This document shows positions 8,008-26,259 of a stretch of DNA of 64,000 nucleotides, piece after piece. Positions within the stretch are counted from its first letter, which is position 1; every line of letters starts with the position of its first letter. The stretch is from an uncultured Flavobacteriaceae bacterium (GTDB taxonomy: Bacteria > Bacteroidota > Bacteroidia > Flavobacteriales > Flavobacteriaceae), in the NCBI GenBank assembly GCA_947502975.1, contig CANNBV010000002.1:248001-312000 (forward strand), read 5' to 3'. The notes beneath the pieces were generated by a model, which was not told where the DNA came from, searched no databases, and saw only the letters and a program-made list of their open reading frames with translations. A program made the position numbers and the translations under genes.

Positions 8008-9408
<1,401 letters not shown>

Positions 9409-13355: not shown

Positions 13356-14747
13356 ATGGGAAAGAAACTAAGCGGAAAAGACTTAATTAAATTAGGCTTT
13401 CCAAAGAACAATAGTATTAATGTGACTTTAGGTCAGATTAATCGCTATCATAAACGCGTAAAAAAAGAGAAAATATTAACTGAAGCAAAAAAAGTATTAC
13501 TAAATCCTGAAGCCTATAAAGGAGATGGAGTTTGGGGAAAAATAGCAGAGAGCCTGCTAGACCCAGTACATGTGGTAAAACAAAAATTAAACACACATCG
13601 TGCACCATTTCAAATTTATGGAGAAAACGAAATTGACGATCAGGCAAAATACCAATTGTATGATGCTTTAAAGCTACCAATAGCAGTTGCAGGAGCCTTA
13701 ATGCCAGATGCTCATGTAGGCTACGGTTTACCAATAGGTGGTGTCTTGGCAACAAAAGATGCTGTAATTCCTTATGGCGTTGGTGTAGATATTGGTTGCA
13801 GAATGTGTTTAACAATTTATCCCGTAAAAGCCTCTTACTTAAAAGGTAAAAAGCATCAACTGGAAAACATATTGTCAGAACACACCAAATTTGGGATGTA
13901 CGAAACACATAAAGTAAAGCATGATGATCCGGTTTTTGAACGTGAAGAATTTAAAACCATTCCGTTAGTAAAACGCTTAAAGGATAAAGCTTATAAGCAA
14001 TTAGGAACCTCTGGTGGAGGTAATCATTTCGTTGAGTTTGGTGTTATCAGCATCATAGATGGCAATAACGAATGGAACTTACCATTAGGTGATTACTTAG
14101 GCGTGTTATCACATAGTGGCTCACGCGGATTGGGAGCAAACATTGCCAAGCACTATACATATTTAGCCACAAAGCAATGTCCATTACCAAAACACGTACA
14201 GCATTTAGCATGGTTAGATTTAAACACACACGATGGACAAGAATATTGGTTAGCTATGAATTTGGCTGGTGATTATGCAAAAGCGTGTCATGATAATATT
14301 CATAAACGTATTGCAAAACTCTTGGGAGAAAAGCCAATTGCGAAGATTGATAATCATCACAATTTCGCTTGGAAACAAGAGATCAACGGACAAGAATGTA
14401 TTGTACATAGAAAAGGAGCAACACCAGCAAAAAAAGGAGAGTTAGGCATTATTCCAGGATCAATGACTGCACCAGGATTTGTAGTAAGAGGGTTAGGTAA
14501 TACAGAAAGTTTACAGTCGGCATCTCATGGAGCAGGACGTGTACTATCTAGACGCCAATGCAAAATGACATTAACGCAAAGTGCTATAAAAAAAGAATTA
14601 CAAAAGCACGATGTCACTTTAATTGGAGGTGGTATAGATGAAGCACCAATGGCATATAAGAACATTGAAACTGTGATGAAAAACCAACAAGAATTGGTTG
14701 AAATCGTTGGGAAATTCACACCAAAGATTGTGAGAATGGCTAAGTAA
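13356..14747 (+). CDS. rtcB: RtcB RNA ligase, paralogue 2 (PrfH-linked)
   Basis: 463-aa RtcB ligase with the classic motif GVGVDIGCRM (about residue 145), GGGNHFVEFG, SHSGSRG, HRKGATP and the nucleotidyl-accepting His391 in SHGAGRVLSR. It is clearly closer to typical RtcB than paralogue 1. It precedes a nucleotidyltransferase and PrfH. RtcB encoded beside PrfH is known to re-ligate ribosomal RNA cut in the decoding centre after PrfH has released the stalled peptide. I therefore infer that this copy serves ribosome repair, leaving paralogue 1 for tRNA work. Confidence 0.95.
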   Translation: MGKKLSGKDLIKLGFPKNNSINVTLGQINRYHKRVKKEKILTEAKKVLLNPEAYKGDGVWGKIAESLLDPVHVVKQKLNTHRAPFQIYGENEIDDQAKYQLYDALKLPIAVAGALMPDAHVGYGLPIGGVLATKDAVIPYGVGVDIGCRMCLTIYPVKASYLKGKKHQLENILSEHTKFGMYETHKVKHDDPVFEREEFKTIPLVKRLKDKAYKQLGTSGGGNHFVEFGVISIIDGNNEWNLPLGDYLGVLSHSGSRGLGANIAKHYTYLATKQCPLPKHVQHLAWLDLNTHDGQEYWLAMNLAGDYAKACHDNIHKRIAKLLGEKPIAKIDNHHNFAWKQEINGQECIVHRKGATPAKKGELGIIPGSMTAPGFVVRGLGNTESLQSASHGAGRVLSRRQCKMTLTQSAIKKELQKHDVTLIGGGIDEAPMAYKNIETVMKNQQELVEIVGKFTPKIVRMAK

Positions 14748-18860: not shown

Positions 18861-18933
18861 TGACGCGTAGCTCAGTTGGTAGAGCAAGGTGCTTTTAACG
18901 CCGAGGTCGTGGGTTCGAGACCCACCGCGTCAA
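18861..18933 (+). tRNA. tRNA-Lys (TTT)
   Basis: First gene of the array. Acceptor TGACGCG/CGCGTCA, T-stem GTGGG/CCCAC, loop CTTTTAA. Ordinary class I cloverleaf; no CCA encoded. Confidence 0.93.
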
Positions 18934-18939
18934 CACAAT

Positions 18940-19082
18940 GGAAGGACAAGCCAATTTGGAGGTGGTCGCTGTCTTGAAATGAGTTTATGAATTCAACGAA
19001 TCCCATTTATCAAAATAGAATTCTTTGAGTTAAAACAGTTAGGAGTTAACGACTCGTGTGGGTTCAACTCCCACTCCTTCCG
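18940..19082 (+). tRNA. tRNA-Ser (TGA) with 55-nt insertion in the anticodon loop
   Basis: Acceptor GGAAGGA/TCCTTCC, T-stem GTGGG/CCCAC and a long variable arm (GAGT/GACTC) define a class II tRNA. The anticodon stem GCTGT/ACAGT is split: after CTTGA comes a 55-nt insertion, about 18977-19031 (the exact ends slide within an A-run). Removing it gives a normal 7-nt loop CTTGAAA with anticodon TGA and an 88-nt tRNA. The insertion contains GAATTC/GAATTC (18989/19018) able to pair. It is far too short for a group I intron. Confidence 0.85.
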
Positions 19083-19087
19083 CAAAA

Positions 19088-19159
19088 CTAGGAGAATAAC
19101 AATGGCTGTTTACTCGCTTTGGAAGCGAGAGGTTGCAGGTTCGAATCCTGTCTCTTAGA
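19088..19159 (+). tRNA. tRNA-Pro (TGG)
   Basis: Acceptor CTAGGAG/CTCTTAG (one G-T), anticodon stem CTCGC/GCGAG, loop TTTGGAA, T-stem GCAGG/CCTGT. The D-stem is only 3 bp. Confidence 0.88.
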
Positions 19160-19242
19160 CGAAAGAATCAAACCAAGTTTATTTGAGTTTGATTTTCAAT
19201 GAGTCCAGACAGGAAAGACGAAGTCAATCCTGTCTCTTAGAC
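19146..19242. repeat. direct duplication of the tRNA-Pro 3' end
   Basis: The 15 bases AATCCTGTCTCTTAG plus AC recur at the tRNA end (from 19145) and about 81 bp downstream (19227-19242). The second copy pairs with an upstream AGACAGGA, and an AATCAAAC/GTTTGATT hairpin lies between. Such a 3'-end copy can be an attachment-site scar or a decoy/processing element. Confidence 0.65.
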
Positions 19243-19247
19243 AATTT

Positions 19248-19334
19248 GGAGAGTAGACAAATATTGGTTTGTTGTGCTTGCCTGCTAAGCAAGTCTGCTT
19301 AAATGCAGTAAGAGTTCGATTCTCTTACTCTCCG
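19248..19334 (+). tRNA. tRNA-Ser (GCT)
   Basis: Class II: acceptor GGAGAGT/ACTCTCC, anticodon stem CTTGC/GCAAG, loop CTGCTAA, variable arm CTGC/GCAG, discriminator G. Confidence 0.93.
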
Positions 19335-19342
19335 CAAAAAAT

Positions 19343-19415
19343 GGGGTCATAGTTTAACGAGCCAAAATCGTGGGTTTGCAACCTGCAGAACGGAGTGCAA
19401 GTCTCCGCGACTCCA
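19343..19415 (+). tRNA. tRNA-Ala (TGC)
   Basis: Acceptor GGGGTCA/CGACTCC with the G3-U70 pair that specifies alanine; position 7-66 is a mismatch. Loop TTTGCAA. The T-loop reads TGCAAGT instead of TTCnAnT, and the D-stem is weak, so it is a somewhat degenerate tRNA. Confidence 0.85.
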
Positions 19416-19420
19416 CAAAA

Positions 19421-19492
19421 GATAGTGTAGCTCAACGGCAGAGCGTGGACCTGTTAAGTCCTAGGTTGTAGGTTCGAATCCTATCGCTATCT
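19421..19492 (+). tRNA. tRNA-Asn (GTT)
   Basis: Acceptor GATAGTG/CGCTATC, anticodon stem GGAC/GTCC, loop CTGTTAA, T-stem GTAGG/CCTAT. Confidence 0.93.
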
Positions 19493-19496
19493 CAAA

Positions 19497-19569
19497 GACA
19501 AGGTGGCTGAATAGCTAAGGCGACAGACTGCAAATCTGTTATTTATGAGTTCGATTCTCATCCTTGTCT
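19497..19569 (+). tRNA. tRNA-Cys (GCA)
   Basis: Acceptor GACAAGG/CCTTGTC, anticodon stem ACAGA/TCTGT, loop CTGCAAA, discriminator U as usual for Cys. Confidence 0.92.
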
Positions 19570-19576
19570 CAAATTT

Positions 19577-19659
19577 GGAAGTATTGAGCAATTGGTTGGC
19601 TCGCCAGACTGTAAATCTGGTCCCGAAAGGGCTTGTAGGTTCGAGTCCTACTGCTTCCA
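19577..19659 (+). tRNA. tRNA-Tyr (GTA)
   Basis: Class II: acceptor GGAAGTA/TGCTTCC, anticodon stem CCAGA/TCTGG, loop CTGTAAA, variable arm CCC/GGG. Confidence 0.93.
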
Positions 19660-19665
19660 CATTAA

Positions 19666-19737
19666 GCATCTATGGTGTAATTGGCAACATAATAGACTTC
19701 CAATCTATAGTTTCGAGTTCGAGTCTCGATAGATGCT
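19666..19737 (+). tRNA. tRNA-Gly (TCC)
   Basis: Acceptor GCATCTA/TAGATGC, anticodon stem TAGA/TCTA, loop CTTCCAA, discriminator U. Confidence 0.92.
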
Positions 19738-19747
19738 CAGATAAAAC

Positions 19748-19819
19748 ACGCTTATAGTGTAATTGGTAGCATTTGAGTCTCCAAAACTTAAGGTTAAGGT
19801 TCGAGTCCTTATAAGCGTG
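19748..19819 (+). tRNA. tRNA-Trp (CCA)
   Basis: Acceptor ACGCTTA/TAAGCGT, anticodon stem TGAGT/ACTTA, loop CTCCAAA, discriminator G. Confidence 0.92.
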
Positions 19820-19825
19820 CAAAAT

Positions 19826-19897
19826 ATATCTATGGTGTAACGGAAAGCACAAAAGGTTTCTACCCTTTAAGTCCAAGTTCGACTCTTGGTAGATATA
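19826..19897 (+). tRNA. tRNA-Arg (TCT)
   Basis: Acceptor ATATCTA/TAGATAT, anticodon stem AAAGG/CCTTT, loop TTTCTAC, T-stem CCAAG/CTTGG. Confidence 0.9.
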
Positions 19898-19904
19898 CAA
19901 TATT

Positions 19905-19976
19905 GGTTCATTGGGGTAATGGCTATCCTTCCCGACTGTCTCTCGGGAGATACGAGTTCGATTCTCGTATGAACCG
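19905..19976 (+). tRNA. tRNA-Asp (GTC)
   Basis: Acceptor GGTTCAT/ATGAACC, anticodon stem CCCGA/TCGGG, loop CTGTCTC, discriminator G. Confidence 0.92.
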
Positions 19977-19982
19977 CAAACT

Positions 19983-20054
19983 GTTCCGTTGGTCAAATGG
20001 TTAAGACGGCTGACTTTCTATCAGCAGATGGGAGTTCGATTCTCCTACGGAATT
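19983..20054 (+). tRNA. tRNA-Glu (TTC)
   Basis: Acceptor GTTCCGT/ACGGAAT, anticodon stem GCTGA/TCAGC, loop CTTTCTA, T-stem GGGAG/CTCCT. Confidence 0.9.
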
Positions 20055-20059
20055 CAAAT

Positions 20060-20131
20060 TGAGGTATAGCTCAGTGGAAGAGCATCACGCTTACATCGTG
20101 ACAGTCATAGGTTCGATCCCTATTGCCTCAA
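20060..20131 (+). tRNA. tRNA-Val (TAC)
   Basis: Acceptor TGAGGTA/TGCCTCA, anticodon stem TCACG/CGTGA, loop CTTACAT, T-stem ATAGG/CCTAT. Confidence 0.92.
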
Positions 20132-20136
20132 CAAAT

Positions 20137-20209
20137 TGAGATATAGCTTAACTGGTAGAGCACCGCTCTCATAAGGCGGTTTGTTTAGGTTCGAGTCCTA
20201 ATATCTCAA
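20137..20209 (+). tRNA. tRNA with CAT anticodon (Ile2 or elongator Met)
   Basis: Acceptor TGAGATA/TATCTCA, anticodon stem CCGCT/GGCGG, loop CTCATAA. It is not an initiator: pair 1-72 is intact and the GGG/CCC signature is absent. Since a permuted tRNA-Met(CAT) follows later in the array, this one may be the lysidine-modified Ile reader of AUA (inference). Confidence 0.88.
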
Positions 20210-20213
20210 CGAT

Positions 20214-20287
20214 GCAGGAATGGCGGAATAGGTATACGCTCTTGTCTTAGAAACAAGGTTTTGAGAGTTCGAGTCTCTCTTCCTGTA
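20214..20287 (+). tRNA. tRNA-Leu (TAG) without long variable arm
   Basis: Acceptor GCAGGAA/TTCCTGT, anticodon stem CTTGT/ACAAG, loop CTTAGAA, discriminator A. The D-arm (GCG/CGC) looks Leu-like, but the variable region is only GTTTT where bacterial Leu tRNAs carry a long arm. Confidence 0.85.
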
Positions 20288-20353
20288 CGAAGTAAGAAGA
20301 GAGATGAGAAGTTTATCCTGAGCGTAGTCGAAGGGAGTCTCTCTTCCTGTACA
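20270..20353. repeat. duplication of the tRNA-Leu(TAG) 3' end with dispersed repeat
   Basis: GAGTCTCTCTTCCTGTAC at the tRNA end recurs at about 20335-20352. Between the copies lies TTTATCCTGAGCGTAGTCG plus AAGGG (20312-20335), which I recall as a dispersed flavobacterial palindrome half. Beyond it (20368-20399) is a near-perfect hairpin AAAATGTCTA/TAGACATTTT. Confidence 0.65.
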
Positions 20354-20424
20354 GGACGTTACGTTAGGAAAATGTCTAGTAGACATTTTTAGCAAACGTG
20401 CCAGATGGTGCGAAGGCAACTAAA

Positions 20425-20498
20425 GCTCCACTAGCCCAAATGGAAGAGGCAAAGGTTTTAAGCACCTTTAAGTCCAAGTTCGAATCTTGGGTGGAGTA
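20425..20498 (+). tRNA. tRNA-Leu (TAA) without long variable arm
   Basis: Acceptor GCTCCAC/GTGGAGT, D-stem GCC/GGC, anticodon stem AAGGT/ACCTT, loop TTTAAGC, variable region only TAAGT. It is the second Leu tRNA in the array lacking the class II arm. Confidence 0.85.
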
Positions 20499-20503
20499 CA
20501 AAT

Positions 20504-20576
20504 AGGTTTATAGTGTAATTGGATAACACTCCAGAATACGACTCTGGGAATATGGGTTCAAGTCCTATTAAACCTA
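20504..20576 (+). tRNA. tRNA-Arg (ACG)
   Basis: Acceptor AGGTTTA/TAAACCT, anticodon stem CCAGA/TCTGG, loop ATACGAC. A34 would be deaminated to inosine by TadA. Confidence 0.9.
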
Positions 20577-20582
20577 CAAAAA

Positions 20583-20704
20583 TAACTTGTGGTGTAACGG
20601 TAGCATTGAAGATTTACTCATGACATTCCTATATCATTAAATAGGTATTCGTGAATGCTTTGCATTTGAATCTTCAGGTATAGGTTCGAATCCTGTCGAG
20701 TTAA
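20583..20704 (+). tRNA. tRNA-Gln (TTG) with 51-nt insertion in the anticodon loop
   Basis: Acceptor TAACTTG/CGAGTTA with the weak U1-A72 pair typical of Gln, D-arm GTGT...GCAT and T-stem ATAGG/CCTGT. The anticodon stem GAAGA (20608-20612) pairs with TCTTC (20671-20675), but 58 nt lie between them. Removing 51 nt (about 20614-20664; the boundary slides in a repeated TT) leaves loop TTTTGAA, anticodon TTG. The insertion contains CATTC/GAATG and CCTAT/ATAGG pairings. Reading the 5' side alone would suggest Val(TAC), but Val is already in the array and the D-arm is Gln-like. Confidence 0.8.
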
Positions 20705-20710
20705 CAATAA

Positions 20711-20783
20711 TCTGACATAGCTTAATTGGTAAAGTGCAAATCTGATACGTTTGCGGATAAAGGTTCAAGTCCTTTTGTCAGAA
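20711..20783 (+). tRNA. tRNA-Ile (GAT)
   Basis: Acceptor TCTGACA/TGTCAGA, anticodon stem CAAAT/GTTTG, loop CTGATAC, T-stem AAAGG/CCTTT. Confidence 0.92.
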
Positions 20784-20791
20784 CTAATTAT

Positions 20792-20864
20792 GGTGGCTTT
20801 AGTTTATGCGGTAAAACACCTCACTGTGAATGAAGAAAATAGGGTTCGAATCCCAAAGTCACCC
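20792..20864 (+). tRNA. tRNA-His (GTG), no encoded G-1
   Basis: Acceptor GGTGGCT/AGTCACC, loop CTGTGAA, discriminator C73. Position -1 in the DNA is T, not the G that normally pairs with C73. The anticodon stem has one C-A mismatch and the T-stem one mismatch. Confidence 0.82.
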
Positions 20865-20869
20865 AAAAA

Positions 20870-20942
20870 GGAACAATAGCAAAGCAGGTCTATGCGTCCC
20901 GCTGAAGACGGGAAGATACTGGTTCGATCCCAGTTTGTTCCA
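20870..20942 (+). tRNA. tRNA-Phe (GAA)
   Basis: Acceptor GGAACAA/TTGTTCC, anticodon stem TCCCG/CGGGA, loop CTGAAGA, T-stem ACTGG/CCAGT. Last tRNA of the first block. Confidence 0.92.
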
Positions 20943-20975
20943 CAATATAAATGTTTAACTAAAAAATGAGTAATC

Positions 20976-22262: not shown

Positions 22263-22467
22263 ACCTCTTTAGCTTAAAGGGAAGAGCTGTGTCAAAAGAT
22301 TTTGATTCGTAGGCACGGAGTGATAGGATGATGTGGTTGGTGGCGTGCCTGCCAATGACTAGATTTTGCAGAAGCACCGAAATACACGGGATGTAAAGTA
22401 GGGAAGCGCATTTAGAGCCTATCTGTTCACTTTTGTGAAAGTACCAGTTCGAATCTGGTAAGAGGTA
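22263..22467 (+). tRNA. interrupted tRNA-like gene, anticodon unresolved (possibly Thr)
   Basis: Acceptor ACCTCTT/AAGAGGT pairs 7 of 7, D-stem GCTT/GAGC, T-stem ACCAG/CTGGT with loop TTCGAAT and discriminator A. Between the D-arm and T-arm lie about 155 nt instead of about 22. The insertion has its own pairings: CAAAAG/CTTTTG (22293/22430), TAGGC/GCCTA (22310/22417) and GGCACG/CGTGCC (22312/22344). I could not find a unique 5-bp anticodon stem, so it may be a spliced tRNA, a decoy or a decayed gene. Thr is the only amino acid otherwise missing. Confidence 0.6.
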
Positions 22468-22630
22468 CAAATAAAATTAAGATTTCTGCCTTGGCGGGAA
22501 CTAAAAATATCAAGTAAGTCTTGTTATGTGTTTCGGTATAGCACTATTGTATAAATCCTTACGGTTTCGTATGAGGTTTTTATGTTCAACTTGACTTGGT
22601 ACCAACTGGTTATTTGGTTAAACAATAACC

Positions 22631-22725
22631 GACATCTATGTGTCATGGGTTCGATTCCCATCTTCCCCACAAATTATACCGCAACATAAGGGGAAGTAGC
22701 TCAGCGGTTAGAGCAATAGATTTTT
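22631..22725 (+). tRNA. circularly permuted tRNA A (anticodon unresolved)
   Basis: The 3' half comes first: anticodon 3' stem TCTAT (22635-22639), T-arm ATGGG/CCCAT, acceptor CTTCCCC (22662-22668), then A. After about 20 nt the 5' half follows: acceptor GGGGAAG (22690-22696), D-arm GCTC/GAGC and anticodon 5' stem ATAGA (22716-22720). In the swapped order the acceptor pairs 7 of 7 and the anticodon stem 5 of 5. The loop joins TTTTTG (22721 onward) to GACA (22631-22634), so the anticodon depends on the splice point. A 7-bp hairpin GGTTATT/AATAACC (22608-22630) borders the 3' half. The stretch 22468-22607 holds no gene I can see. Confidence 0.75.
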
Positions 22726-22806
22726 GCGCAGGTTCGATTCCTGTCAAGGCCACCATTTTAGGCTTTGTAGCTCAGTAGGTAGAGCACTACACTCATAATG
22801 TAGGAT
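22726..22806 (+). tRNA. circularly permuted tRNA-Met (CAT)
   Basis: 3' half first: T-arm GCAGG/CCTGT (22728-22744), acceptor CAAGGCC (22745-22751), discriminator A and encoded CCA (22753-22755). Five bases (TTTTA) later the 5' half begins: acceptor GGCTTTG (22761-22767), D-arm GCTC/GAGC, and a complete anticodon arm CTACA-CTCATAA-TGTAG (22787-22803). The acceptor pairs 7 of 7 (one G-U) only in the swapped order. The break lies in the variable loop. It resembles an elongator tRNA-Met. Confidence 0.8.
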
Positions 22807-22828
22807 ATGGACTTTTATCCATCTTTTC
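22804..22828 (+). terminator. weak hairpin-plus-T end of the second tRNA unit
   Basis: ATGGA/TCCAT hairpin followed by TTTT straight after the permuted tRNA-Met. The following 22829-23221 stretch (about 390 bp) contains no gene or promoter I can support. Confidence 0.45.
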
Positions 22829-23221
22829 ACCAAGAAGGTCACTTGTAAAAATCGACTACCAAGTGTGTCTCACTCTAAACGACAAAAACAAAGTGAATTA
22901 AAACTGGCAAAGGCAACTTGTTACCAAAGCAGTCTAGACAGCACCTTGAAATACTCATGTATTTTAAGCTGTTTTAGGTGTTCTTTTAAAGATTCATTTT
23001 TCAATTTAAGATTCAGAAATTATTTGTTTCAAAATTGATTAACCATCTGAAAAACAATATTGAAAAACACTTTTAATCGGTTGTATTTCCGTAGTTAGAA
23101 AGATGGTTTTCTTTCGCTTTGTTTTACAAAAGAATAGTCATTCTCATAAAGAGAACTCTATTATAAATGTTTAACCGTTTTGATATAAAAACGAAAATAT
23201 CAGAACAAAAAATTAGAAATC

Positions 23222-24322
23222 ATGAAAAGAGTAAGAATTCATGCAGGTATGGTAGGTTTAGTGTTTAAAAGCGGTAATTACACACGTGTGATTAGTGAAG
23301 GTAAACATTGGATAGGCTTTAGAACGCAAGTTGCAAAATATAGCTTATCTCAGCCATTTAACGCGCCAAGAGCACTAGAGATCTTACTTAAAGATCAAGC
23401 TTTGGCAGAGATGTTAACCGTAATTGAGGTTAAGGATAATGAGATTGTTTTGGTATACGAAAACGGTAACTTTAAGCAGGTATTAACTGCTGGTCGTTAC
23501 ACCTACTGGAATGGTTTGATTGACTATAAATTTGTAACTGCAGATTTAAGTAAAATCGAGATTACAGAAGCTATCGAAAAAGCAATCTACAATAAGCCAG
23601 AATTGAGCAGATACATTAGAGTATTTGAAGTAGCTGCTTACGAAAAAGCCGTTATGATTGTAAACGATAAGTTTGTAAAAACTTTAGAACATGGTACATA
23701 CCACTTCTGGAGAAATGACCAAACCATTAAAATCGCTAAAGCCGATTTACGTCAATTACAATTAGAAATTGCAGGTCAAGAATTGTTAACTAAAGACAAA
23801 GCAACCGTTCGTATTAACTTTTACGCACAATTTAAAGTCGCAGATATTGAGACTGCATTAATGCACAATAAAGATTACGAAAAGCAATTGTACATTGTCT
23901 TACAATTAGCATTGAGAGCTTTTGTTGGTGCTTACACATTAGATGAATTGTTAGAGCAAAAGGAAACTATTGCTAAAGCCGTTTTAACAGATGTAAAAGC
24001 ACAGGCTAGTAAATTGGGTGTAAACGTATTACATACTGGTATTAGAGATGTGATTTTGCCTGGTGATATGAAAGATATCATGAATCAAGTATTGATTGCT
24101 CATAAAAAAGCACAAGCAAACGTGGTCACTAGACGTGAAGAAACAGCATCTACACGAAGCTTGTTAAATACCGCAAAGTTAATGGAAGACAACAGCATGT
24201 TGTTTAAATTAAAAGAGATGGAATACGTCGAGAAAATCGCTGATAAAATTGGTGAAATCACGGTTGCTGGTAACGGTAATGTTATTGAACAATTGAAGGA
24301 TATTTTCTCAGTGAATAAGTAA
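23222..24322 (+). CDS. slipin-like SPFH protein with three N-terminal repeats
   Basis: 366-aa soluble slipin/SPFH protein. The SPFH core spans about residues 165-320 (RQLQLEIAGQELLTKDKATV onward) with a coiled-coil tail. Before it the N-terminus contains three related beta motifs, V-x-L-V/I-x3-G/D-x-x-x-x-V/T-L/I-x-x-G-x-Y/H-x-x-W, at about residues 10-31, 79-101 and 141-163. There is no membrane segment. Slipins recur in bacterial RtcB neighbourhoods as putative scaffolds. It is the second SPFH protein of the island. A terminator follows directly. Confidence 0.8.
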   Translation: MKRVRIHAGMVGLVFKSGNYTRVISEGKHWIGFRTQVAKYSLSQPFNAPRALEILLKDQALAEMLTVIEVKDNEIVLVYENGNFKQVLTAGRYTYWNGLIDYKFVTADLSKIEITEAIEKAIYNKPELSRYIRVFEVAAYEKAVMIVNDKFVKTLEHGTYHFWRNDQTIKIAKADLRQLQLEIAGQELLTKDKATVRINFYAQFKVADIETALMHNKDYEKQLYIVLQLALRAFVGAYTLDELLEQKETIAKAVLTDVKAQASKLGVNVLHTGIRDVILPGDMKDIMNQVLIAHKKAQANVVTRREETASTRSLLNTAKLMEDNSMLFKLKEMEYVEKIADKIGEITVAGNGNVIEQLKDIFSVNK

Positions 24323-24460: not shown

Positions 24461-25207
24461 ATGAAAGCAAAAATATTAGATAAATTAAAACAAATAGAAC
24501 AGGATAAAAATATAGAAATCTTGTTCGCAGTAGAATCGGGAAGTAGAGCCTGGGGCTTTGCTTCCCCAGATTCTGATTATGATATACGTTTTGTGTACAA
24601 ACATTCTAAAGATTGGTATTTAAACCTTTGGGAACAAGCAGATACGATACAGTTTATGACAAAAGATGATTTGGATGGTTCAGGTTGGGATATCCGTAAA
24701 GCATTGCGATTATTAGCGAAGTCAAATGCATCTTTTACAGGATGGTTATTTTCGCCAATAGTATATCTTGCAGATAATGATTTCTTGAATGAGATAAAGA
24801 ATCTGGCCAATACTAACTTTAACCCTGTTTCTGGGTTTTATCATTTTCATAGTATGAATAAAAATTTTGAAGAAACATTAGGTTCGGAGAAGATGACATT
24901 AAAAAGTTTTTTTTACGCAATACGTACAGCGCTTTGTGCAAATTGGATTTATAAAAATGAAACTATTCCACCAGTGCTGTTTAGAGAAATGTATTCCTTA
25001 ATAGATACAAGTTATCATTCAAAATTAGATGCACTTATTACATTAAAAAGTGAGCGTATTGAAAAGAGTAATGATCCTGTAGAAGCAGATTTAATACATT
25101 TAGTAAAGCGTATAGTTAATGAAAATAACAACGTTAAAGATAGATTAGTAAATAAAAAGACGAATCCAGATGACTTTAACGAGTTGTTTTTAAAAACACT
25201 AAAATAA
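24461..25207 (+). CDS. RlaP-type nucleotidyltransferase 1
   Basis: 248-aa predicted nucleotidyltransferase of the RlaP (RNA-ligase-associated pol-beta) family. The active-site motif GSRAWGF (Gly27-Ser28) is followed by D-S-D-Y-D-I-R, giving Asp39 and Asp41 as metal ligands. RlaP proteins are encoded with RNA ligases and are predicted to modify or extend RNA termini before sealing. It is under the shared island operator and overlaps the next gene by one base (TAATG). Confidence 0.85.
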   Translation: MKAKILDKLKQIEQDKNIEILFAVESGSRAWGFASPDSDYDIRFVYKHSKDWYLNLWEQADTIQFMTKDDLDGSGWDIRKALRLLAKSNASFTGWLFSPIVYLADNDFLNEIKNLANTNFNPVSGFYHFHSMNKNFEETLGSEKMTLKSFFYAIRTALCANWIYKNETIPPVLFREMYSLIDTSYHSKLDALITLKSERIEKSNDPVEADLIHLVKRIVNENNNVKDRLVNKKTNPDDFNELFLKTLK

Positions 25208-26259
25208 TGACACTAGAAGCATTAAAATTATCAGGGCATATCATTTTTAAATGTATAAGTGGAAGTAGAGCTTATGGATTGGACACGCCTACATCAGATA
25301 CTGATATAAGAGGTGTGTTCGTCCTTCCTAAAAACCATTTTTATTCGCTTGATTATACTGGTCAAATAAATAATGAAACAAATGATATTGTGTATTACGA
25401 GTTACGAAAGTTCATAGAACTTTGCTCAAAAAACAATCCTAATATCCTAGAATTATTAAATGTACCTGAAGAATGTGTCCTGTATAAGCATCCGATATTT
25501 GATGAGATAAAGCTCGACTGTTTTTTATCTAAGCAATGTGAAAAATCATTTGCTAACTATGCTTATGCTCAAATTAAAAAAGCAAGAGGTTTAGAAAAGA
25601 AAATTGTAAATCCTGTTGAAAAAGAACGTAAGTCGGTTTTAGATTTTTGTATGGTATATGAAAAAGGAAAGACAATGCCTTTAAAAGTATTCTTAAATGC
25701 TAAAAATATAAAACAGGAAAATTGTGGCGTAGCTAATATTTCTCATCTCAAAGATTGTAATAATCTATACCATAGTTTGGATATCCCTTATAAAGGTATA
25801 ATAAAGAGCGAAAGAGCTAATGATATTGCTTTAAGTTCTATACCGAAGGAAGAAGAGGCTATAGGTATGCTATTCTTTAATAAAGATGGCTATTCAACAT
25901 ACTGTAAAAAGTATGCAGCATATTGGGATTGGGTTGAAAAACGCAATGAAGAACGCTATAAAACAACCGTATCTCATGGTAAAAATTACGATTCCAAAAA
26001 CATGATGCATACATTTAGGCTTTTGCACATGGCAAAGGAAATAGCTACCGAGAAAACCATAAATGTTAAACGTCCTGATAGAACATTTTTACTGGATGTT
26101 AAGCAAGGTAAATACGAATATGATGAGTTGGTTAGTTGGGCAGAAGAACGAAAATTAGAATTGGAGAAATTATATGCTAGTTCTAATCTGCCAGAAAGAC
26201 CAAACCTAGAAACGGTAAATAAGTTATTAATTGAATTAAGAGAGAGATTTTATCTTTGA
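25207..26259 (+). CDS. RlaP-type nucleotidyltransferase 2
   Basis: 350-aa paralogue of the preceding enzyme with GSRAYGLDTPTSDTDIRG (Gly19-Ser20, Asp31, Asp33) and a long helical C-terminal part. The two differ enough in length and sequence to suggest different substrates or a heterodimer. It ends the RNA-repair island; downstream is a gene-poor 440-bp stretch. Confidence 0.85.
   Translation: MTLEALKLSGHIIFKCISGSRAYGLDTPTSDTDIRGVFVLPKNHFYSLDYTGQINNETNDIVYYELRKFIELCSKNNPNILELLNVPEECVLYKHPIFDEIKLDCFLSKQCEKSFANYAYAQIKKARGLEKKIVNPVEKERKSVLDFCMVYEKGKTMPLKVFLNAKNIKQENCGVANISHLKDCNNLYHSLDIPYKGIIKSERANDIALSSIPKEEEAIGMLFFNKDGYSTYCKKYAAYWDWVEKRNEERYKTTVSHGKNYDSKNMMHTFRLLHMAKEIATEKTINVKRPDRTFLLDVKQGKYEYDELVSWAEERKLELEKLYASSNLPERPNLETVNKLLIELRERFYL

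Follow-up and report, generated by a model that had tools for sequence, protein, structure and literature searches.

Tandem circularly permuted tRNA-like modules in a conserved RNA encoded ahead of a soluble slipin gene in Flavobacteriaceae

The RNA-repair island and its RNAs

The window, by which we mean the whole stretch of 64,000 nucleotides that was analysed, encodes two RlaP-family nucleotidyltransferases, two proteins of the RtcB family and a protein with an RF-1 domain, the last of which we take to be PrfH. Together these proteins identify the region as an RNA-repair island. The coordinates of its features are collected in Table 1. The island also encodes a slipin of the SPFH/Band-7 type that is most probably soluble, as the highest Kyte-Doolittle mean over 19 residues is 1.31. 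The slipin sequence matches the structures of stomatin and, more weakly, QmcA and HflK. A conserved structured RNA of ~470 nt (about 22508-22975) is encoded ahead of the slipin gene and is the subject of this report. It begins with a 5' domain that closes on itself in the structure of R1, a model of this domain with 29 pairs, and continues with two tRNA-like modules and a 3' hairpin. A stem of at least 4 bp flanks the loop motif of this hairpin in 113 of 156 loci, a count that still includes duplicates. No intrinsic terminator was found from 22480 to 23240 of the window.

Table 1. Features of the island and of the slipin-linked RNA (positions in the window)
Feature	Position	Strand	Description and basis
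Second RtcB-family protein	8011-9408		PF01139
RtcB RNA ligase	13356-14747	+	PF01139
tRNA gene array	18861-20943	+	5' of the RNA, same strand; ARAGORN
5' domain	22508-22603	+	Three-way junction: basal stem, GUGU..GCAC hairpin, AUAAA..UUUAU hairpin; seven aligned loci
Module 1	22635-22720	+	Anticodon-stem 3' strand, T-arm, capped acceptor stem, D-arm, anticodon-stem 5' strand; opening at the anticodon loop
Module 1 acceptor-like hairpin	22662-22696	+	CTTCCCC / 21-nt loop / GGGGAAG; 7/7 pairing; one helix of the covariation test
Module 2	22728-22803	+	T-arm, capped acceptor stem, D-arm, complete CAU anticodon arm; opening in the variable region
Module 2 T-arm	22728-22744		GCAGG-TTCGATT-CCTGT; direct sequence reading
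Module 2 acceptor-like hairpin	22745-22767	+	CAAGGCC / ACCATTTTA / GGCTTTG; 7/7 pairing, one G-U
Module 2 3' acceptor strand	22745-22751		CAAGGCC; direct sequence reading
Module 2 acceptor loop	22752-22760		ACCATTTTA; direct sequence reading
Module 2 5' acceptor strand	22761-22767		GGCTTTG, followed by TA; direct sequence reading
Module 2 D-arm	22770-22785		Direct sequence reading
Module 2 anticodon arm	22787-22803		CTACA-CTCATAA-TGTAG; direct sequence reading
3' hairpin	22837-22861	+	Loop motif CUUnnnAAAA, in 120/145 distinct loci (a count that implies no significance against chance)
Additional conserved 3' stretch of the RNA or leader	22862-22975	+	Alignments by eye; end not sharply defined
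Slipin	23222-24322	+	SPFH/Band-7, without evident transmembrane segment; PF01145, E 1.8e-29
Two RlaP-family nucleotidyltransferases	24461-26259	+	RNA repair pathway; PF10127, E 7e-66 and 3e-28

Several other tRNA-related elements were observed in the same region. By eye, two tRNA genes of the array that ARAGORN does not call (18938-19080, which resembles Ser-UGA, and 20583-20705) carry inserts of ~55 nt in the anticodon loop, and the 3' ends of a tRNA-Pro and a tRNA-Leu are duplicated after short inserts (19160-19247 and 20288-20425), one of them with TTTATCCTGAGCGTAGTCGAAGG. A second tRNA-like RNA lies at 22263-22470 and has an acceptor, a D-arm and a T-arm, with a structured insert of ~130 nt in place of the anticodon arm; the conserved core of this insert is GCAGAAGCACCGAAAU ... 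GGGAAGCGCAUUUA. In the loci examined this RNA has 20 matches, 15 of them distinct, and 12 of these 15 are found 63-136 nt before the motif of the slipin-linked RNA. A search of Rfam with 22263-22470 returned just a 16-bit tRNA match over the 3' part and families at chance level.

Permuted topology, covariation and closed acceptor stems

The arms of module 2 are arranged in a circularly permuted order. An earlier note on this DNA had placed the T-arm and the 3' acceptor strand ahead of the 5' acceptor strand, the D-arm and the CAT anticodon arm, and direct reading of the sequence confirms this arrangement. The note had also held that the acceptor pairs at 7 of 7 positions in the swapped order only, which is borne out: the linear alternative, in which the 5' strand of the upstream module is combined with the 3' strand of module 2, gives 3/7 pairs. 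Of 380 non-cognate acceptor strand pairs formed among the 20 tRNA genes of the window, 2 reach 7/7. The note did not mention module 1, a second permuted module that lies directly 5' of module 2. The model R2 matches module 2 at 42.7 bits and module 1 at 73.5 bits, the window sequence being part of the R2 seed.

The minimum-energy fold calculated with ViennaRNA contains the T-arm, the capped acceptor hairpin and the D-arm of both modules, as well as the anticodon arm of module 2. Missing from it is the anticodon stem of module 1, the upstream strand of which forms part of a local hairpin. Neither module is called as a tRNA by ARAGORN, and the tRNA model of Rfam barely passes its threshold of 29 bits on them (29.8 and 29.2 bits), with the acceptors broken. 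In those loci that were scanned at Rfam gathering scores, the tRNA model alone fired, on pieces of the slipin-linked RNA.

Covariation was determined for module 1 in an alignment, A3, that comprises 41 of 44 loci; the other three were left out because of a missing module (L031), a T-loop insertion (L042) or an aberrant module (L062). In A3 the ends of the module were located through the complementary five-base strand and the T-arm through its pairing, so the anticodon-stem and T-arm helices are biased towards pairing; the acceptor and the D-arm were not chosen in this way. Across the anticodon stem, T-arm, acceptor hairpin and D-arm, 96.2% of 839 cells are paired, and changes on both sides are observed at 20 of 21 pairs, whereas registers slid along the same alignment are just 38.5-52.9% paired. 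Double-change cells number 188 versus 52 in shuffled alignments, and none of 500 shuffles equals the alignment on any of five measures. When the anticodon stem is removed, 95.3% of the cells remain paired, both-side changes occur at 15/16 pairs and double-change cells number 170 versus 49; 0/500 shuffles match on four of the five measures, and on the fifth, the number of further pair types, 39/500 do. The acceptor itself shows both-side changes at all 7 pairs, with the two loop-side pairs unpaired in 8 and 16 of 33 sequences. Additionally, the anticodon stem of module 1, read at fixed positions, forms 5/5 pairs in 104 of 115 distinct loci (112/124 with duplicates), compared to 59 loci on average and 68 at most when the partners are re-dealt. 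The earlier note had argued that the element is not random debris and had named, as an observation that would count against it, halves that drift in relatives in the absence of compensatory changes. The relatives examined contain massive compensatory change, and the permuted order is, as far as such comparisons can tell, under real and strong selection.

The acceptor stem is closed by a loop in most loci of the family. The set analysed consists of 145 distinct loci, which are 156 loci minus 11 duplicates fetched from two collections. A closed acceptor hairpin was found in module 1 of 137 and in module 2 of 127 of the 145 loci. Two closed modules are present in 108 loci and three in 15, such that 123/145 have two or three of them behind the same 5' domain. 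With the same parser, 47 of 410 ordinary tRNAs of related loci appear closed (13 of these with loops of at most 6 nt), as do 12.4% of 5800 shuffled tails, a control that, like the stem count for the 3' hairpin, rests on the 156 loci including duplicates. Parsed loop lengths are lower bounds, since stem extension by the parser is greedy and loops of 2 nt can result. Where the loop of module 1 is a tetraloop it is GNRA in 38 of 52 cases, over 18 distinct stems (38 of the 137 closed module 1 hairpins), and the D-loop of module 1 contains GG in 136/137. The closed hairpins, the GNRA caps and the D-loop GG seen across loci indicate that the tRNA elbow features have been retained and that the acceptor is kept shut. 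One further locus (L023, 11400-12200) has, by eye, a third permuted unit that is seemingly opened at the D-loop, with the acceptor TTTGACT-GAAG-AGTCAAA.

Linkage to slipin and distribution among relatives

The linkage between the RNA and slipin is nearly perfect. Scanning named genomes for the exact motif gave at least 116 stretches. In 109 of these 116 loci the motif is followed on the same strand, at a distance of 469-995 nt, by slipin, and the other 7 have less than 1500 nt of sequence left downstream. Among 397 genomes of the family, R1 matches 41, a slipin hit at E 1e-40 or better is present in 43, and 40 have both. The few genomes that deviate were inspected individually. G044 has a full-length slipin and no R1 hit, yet it contains module 1 at an R2 score of 64.3 bits, the R1 match being weak (17.7 bits). 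G047, the sole R1 genome that lacks slipin, also lacks the modules and retains the 5' domain. The slipin hits of G249 and G412 are partial (residues 177-363 and 261-365, respectively); the G412 copy lies at a contig end, and upstream of the G249 copy no R1 or R2 match was found. The G249 partial slipin lacking an upstream RNA counts against our main reading, as do the loop-side acceptor pairs of module 1 that are often unpaired.

Of 99 genomes searched at the DNA level, 17 contain matches, the source genome included, and most of these matches are short or weak. The relatives read were the five best of the other genomes and G071, with G084 and G073, whose E-values are slightly better than that of G071, left out. 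In five of these six relatives the three-way-junction 5' domain is followed by tandem modules whose acceptor stems diverge in sequence yet stay complementary. In addition to the 41/397 family genomes, R1 matches 13 of 395 genomes of a sample of the phylum (some genomes are in both sets), and each RNA-bearing genome has one match. Among the 80 matches listed by title, 78 are, as we judge from the names, Flavobacteriia (Flavobacterium, Tenacibaculum, Aquimarina, Kordia, Chryseobacterium, Winogradskyella and others), and the remaining two are one Chitinophagales and one Limnohabitans MAG. A phage origin was considered and rejected: the exact motif has 0 matches in viral_contigs, and the slipin has one viral relative, at 40% identity over residues 30-91.

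More distant slipins (31-39% identity) are encoded on plasmid records, and from the six with a query coverage of 80% or more we took five, those of E. coli, Citrobacter, Burkholderia, Subdoligranulum and Photobacterium. An R2 match lies at most 400 nt upstream of slipin in all five loci. Several of these matches are weak, with E. coli at 18.0 bits (E 0.009) and Citrobacter at 16.2 bits (E 0.03), both based on the T-arm and the capped hairpin, and they prove little by themselves because an ordinary tRNA junction in the window scores 35.7 bits with R2. By eye, the leaders of Subdoligranulum, E. coli and Citrobacter consist of a T-arm and then a capped hairpin. Those of Photobacterium and Burkholderia contain, again by eye, tRNA-like units in linear order, with the Rfam tRNA model scoring 54 and 46 bits in the Photobacterium leader, and this counts against our main reading. 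The linear unit of the Burkholderia leader (L200, 5604-5710) has an anticodon arm that by eye is capped by GAAA. The E. coli slipin leader is found in 1624 of 5426 complete E. coli genomes (about 30%). In Citrobacter the RNA-like segment lies between the divergent rtcR and slipin genes. A TGGCACG element, presumably reminiscent of a sigma-54 promoter, was noticed ahead of two slipin leaders (L199, 5546-5995; L198, 5469-5998).

Relation to Y RNA and possible role

The order of T-arm, capped acceptor stem and D-arm is that of YrlA (RF02553, 6CU1), a circularly permuted tRNA mimic. According to the accessible text of PMC11472068, the Y RNA structure 6CU1 superposes on tRNA as a circular permutation, and that of PMC8394870 describes YrlA as built of modules, with a D, a T and an acceptor arm, and as tethering both Ro and PNPase. 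The settings are also alike, as YrlA occurs in RNA-repair operons; some rtcBA operons include Y RNAs, as stated in excerpts of PMC7790460. In the source genome the two modules are the only RF02553 hits at E 0.001 or better (33.9 and 30.3 bits), the match to module 2, at 30.3 bits, spanning 22727-22785 with E 2.4e-4, compared to a gathering score of 69. Across 27 genomes RF02553 matches 23; these sub-threshold matches are not specific by themselves because 7 of 14 control genomes also give them. Unlike YrlA, the slipin-linked RNA stays below the gathering score in all 27 genomes, has tandem modules after a separate three-way-junction 5' domain, and is linked to a slipin gene and not to Ro. Ro (TROVE) was not found in the source genome and is present in just 3 of 54 RNA-bearing genomes. 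Two Y-RNA-like modules linked to Ro (L204, 5528-5604; L205, 2474-2552) are matched by R2 at 52 and 49 bits and, unlike the slipin-linked RNA, are located near a TROVE gene and not ahead of slipin. Within 6 kb, one island (L204, 1011-5604) combines a slipin RNA and the slipin gene with Ro (TROVE), a tRNA and a further, separate module of the Y-RNA-like kind. In YrlA, a basal stem that is bound by Ro joins the two ends of the RNA around the module. The strand AAC-UU-GACUUG of the 5' domain presumably recalls vertebrate Y RNA; a Ro-binding Y stem was rejected as a reading of this domain, because the UU varies among relatives (UA, UC) and Ro is mostly absent.

An association of a tRNA-like RNA with SPFH proteins may have been noticed before. 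Burroughs and Aravind reportedly described in 2016 SPFH/Band-7 modules in RNA-repair systems with a cognate "novel tRNA-like molecule". The RNA described here likewise resembles tRNA and accompanies an SPFH gene in an RNA-repair island, its place ahead of slipin agrees with that description, and the two RNAs may be the same thing. An open-access literature search, as far as its results reach, surfaced no description of an SPFH-linked tRNA-like RNA. A related set of genes is known from Anabaena, for which the accessible portion of PMC10272220 reports a stress-induced trn array and a TrcR regulon that includes rtcB and slipin. A tRNA array, RtcB and slipin are found in both cases; in Anabaena they are repressed by one factor, and the repression is relieved under translational stress. 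In contrast to the source island, the Anabaena tRNA array, rtcB and slipin genes lie apart.

We consider it nearly certain that the slipin-linked RNA is a conserved tRNA mimic and not a tRNA gene. The earlier note had proposed a tRNA-Met gene that matures through a circular intermediate, and such a transcript would be cut and circularised with RtcB, after which RNase P and tRNase Z would open it at ACCA/TTTTA. The swapped 7/7 acceptor, the encoded CCA, the intact CAU arm and RtcB in the island all speak for this proposal, and short loops alone do not exclude it, since the known permuted tRNA genes (34 in six algae and one archaeon, by a review count) have intervening sequences as short as 1 bp (1-74 bp) in the available text of PMC3978253. 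It nevertheless fares badly in the comparison with relatives, whose acceptor hairpins are capped by GNRA and other short loops and whose anticodons vary between species, with module 2 loops that by eye carry CAU, UAG, UCA or UAA. In 123/145 loci two or three such modules follow the same 5' domain, and slipin comes after them; it is the GNRA caps, the varying anticodons and the embedding in a longer RNA that weigh against a tRNA gene. Additionally, no member of the splicing endonuclease family PF01974 turned up in the source genome, in a search to which four archaeal controls of 14 responded. The same points, namely no splicing endonuclease found, an acceptor closed in relatives and a module within a longer RNA, set the element apart from the algal and Thermofilum genes covered by the excerpts of PMC3978253, and an open-access literature search for bacterial permuted tRNA and RtcB returned no title on a bacterial case. 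The encoded CCA named in the note is present in the window but is not a feature of the family, as it is rare at the loop start in relatives (within the first five loop bases in 1/137 module 1 and 5/127 module 2 closed hairpins; 6/43 and 7/34 in a smaller set when CCA may lie anywhere in the loop or across its start). A missing encoded CCA is itself weak evidence, and CCA stands directly 3' of 0 of the 20 tRNA gene ends called by ARAGORN in the window. RtcB, which the note regarded as the required ligase, is indeed encoded in the island, by two genes of the family, but its proximity is explained by the whole island being devoted to RNA repair. Taken together, a permuted tRNA-Met gene is very improbable. 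Even less credence can be given to accidental pairing between adjoining truncated tRNAs left over from the array, although tRNA 3' fragments are by eye repeated near tRNA-Pro and tRNA-Leu; this origin is rejected on the compensatory changes at 20/21 pairs of module 1 and the conservation in 145 distinct loci, and the same-parser control, which closes just 47/410 ordinary tRNAs, also opposes it. The probability of a permuted two-piece tmRNA is equally negligible. RF04321 matches module 1 at 26.6 bits (E 0.0028), which is below its gathering score of 47, while the source genome has a tmRNA elsewhere that matches above the cut-off over the full model length (136.8 bits), and these two results led us to reject it; module 1 moreover carries a D-arm with GG.

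The role of this tRNA mimic can be stated with less confidence. To the explanation as a whole, a slipin-linked, YrlA-type RNA with tandem permuted tRNA-mimic modules and a role connected to slipin, we assign a probability of roughly 0.6. The ~470-nt RNA would be the leader of the soluble slipin gene or be encoded just ahead of it, and its capped modules would allow the tRNA elbow to be rebuilt with no free aminoacyl end. It may be produced together with slipin under translational or RNA-damage stress and act as the stable cognate RNA of a slipin assembly, in which the tRNA-shaped modules might attract tRNA-handling proteins or hold the place of a damaged tRNA during repair by RtcB and RlaP, in parallel to the service of Y RNA to Ro. 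That the RNA serves specifically as a slipin scaffold comes slightly short of even odds. The strict placement of the RNA ahead of slipin is equally compatible with a leader acting in cis and an RNA acting in trans, and the main rival to the scaffold is a leader within the slipin mRNA whose modules would sense tRNA-directed damage or factors that modify or bind tRNA and would switch the expression of slipin and RlaP. The same-strand position upstream of slipin in 109/116 loci, the lack of a detected intrinsic terminator between the RNA and slipin in the window, and the Citrobacter RNA-like segment in the rtcR-slipin intergenic region with its TGGCACG element agree with a leader; the large independent 5' domain and the strictly kept elbow features do not, nor does the description of YrlA, the closest relative in shape, as a protein-tethering RNA (in the accessible text of PMC8394870). 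On this evidence we regard the leader as unlikely, though as a serious competitor. A third role, in which anticodon nucleases or other toxins that attack tRNA are soaked up by the modules and the real tRNAs are spared, would suit an RNA-repair island and the complete anticodon arm that module 2 retains in the window, and excerpts of PMC7790460 propose YrlA as a competitive inhibitor of a tRNA nuclease. Such a decoy is quite unlikely, considering that module 1 has no anticodon loop and that one R1 match per RNA-bearing genome makes for the stoichiometry of a poor sponge; in the same excerpts Salmonella YrlA fragments were not detected, which opposes a bait that is cut and not a competitor.

Returning to the slipin-linked tRNA mimic with its YrlA-like module topology, the finding means that the permuted tRNA topology of Y RNA extends beyond Ro systems and that a conserved RNA belongs to a slipin gene of RNA-repair islands. 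It also advises caution, as swapped tRNA halves in bacteria can be tRNA mimics and not permuted tRNA genes. Soluble slipins could, as a tentative generalisation that we hold to be somewhat less likely than not to be correct, form a second class of Y-RNA-like RNPs that is independent of Ro and has its own tandem permuted tRNA-mimic RNA, with members in Bacteroidota, Bacillota and Pseudomonadota, including the ~30% of complete E. coli genomes. With the RNA now defined and a protein proposed as its partner, it can be asked what role SPFH proteins play in RNA repair.
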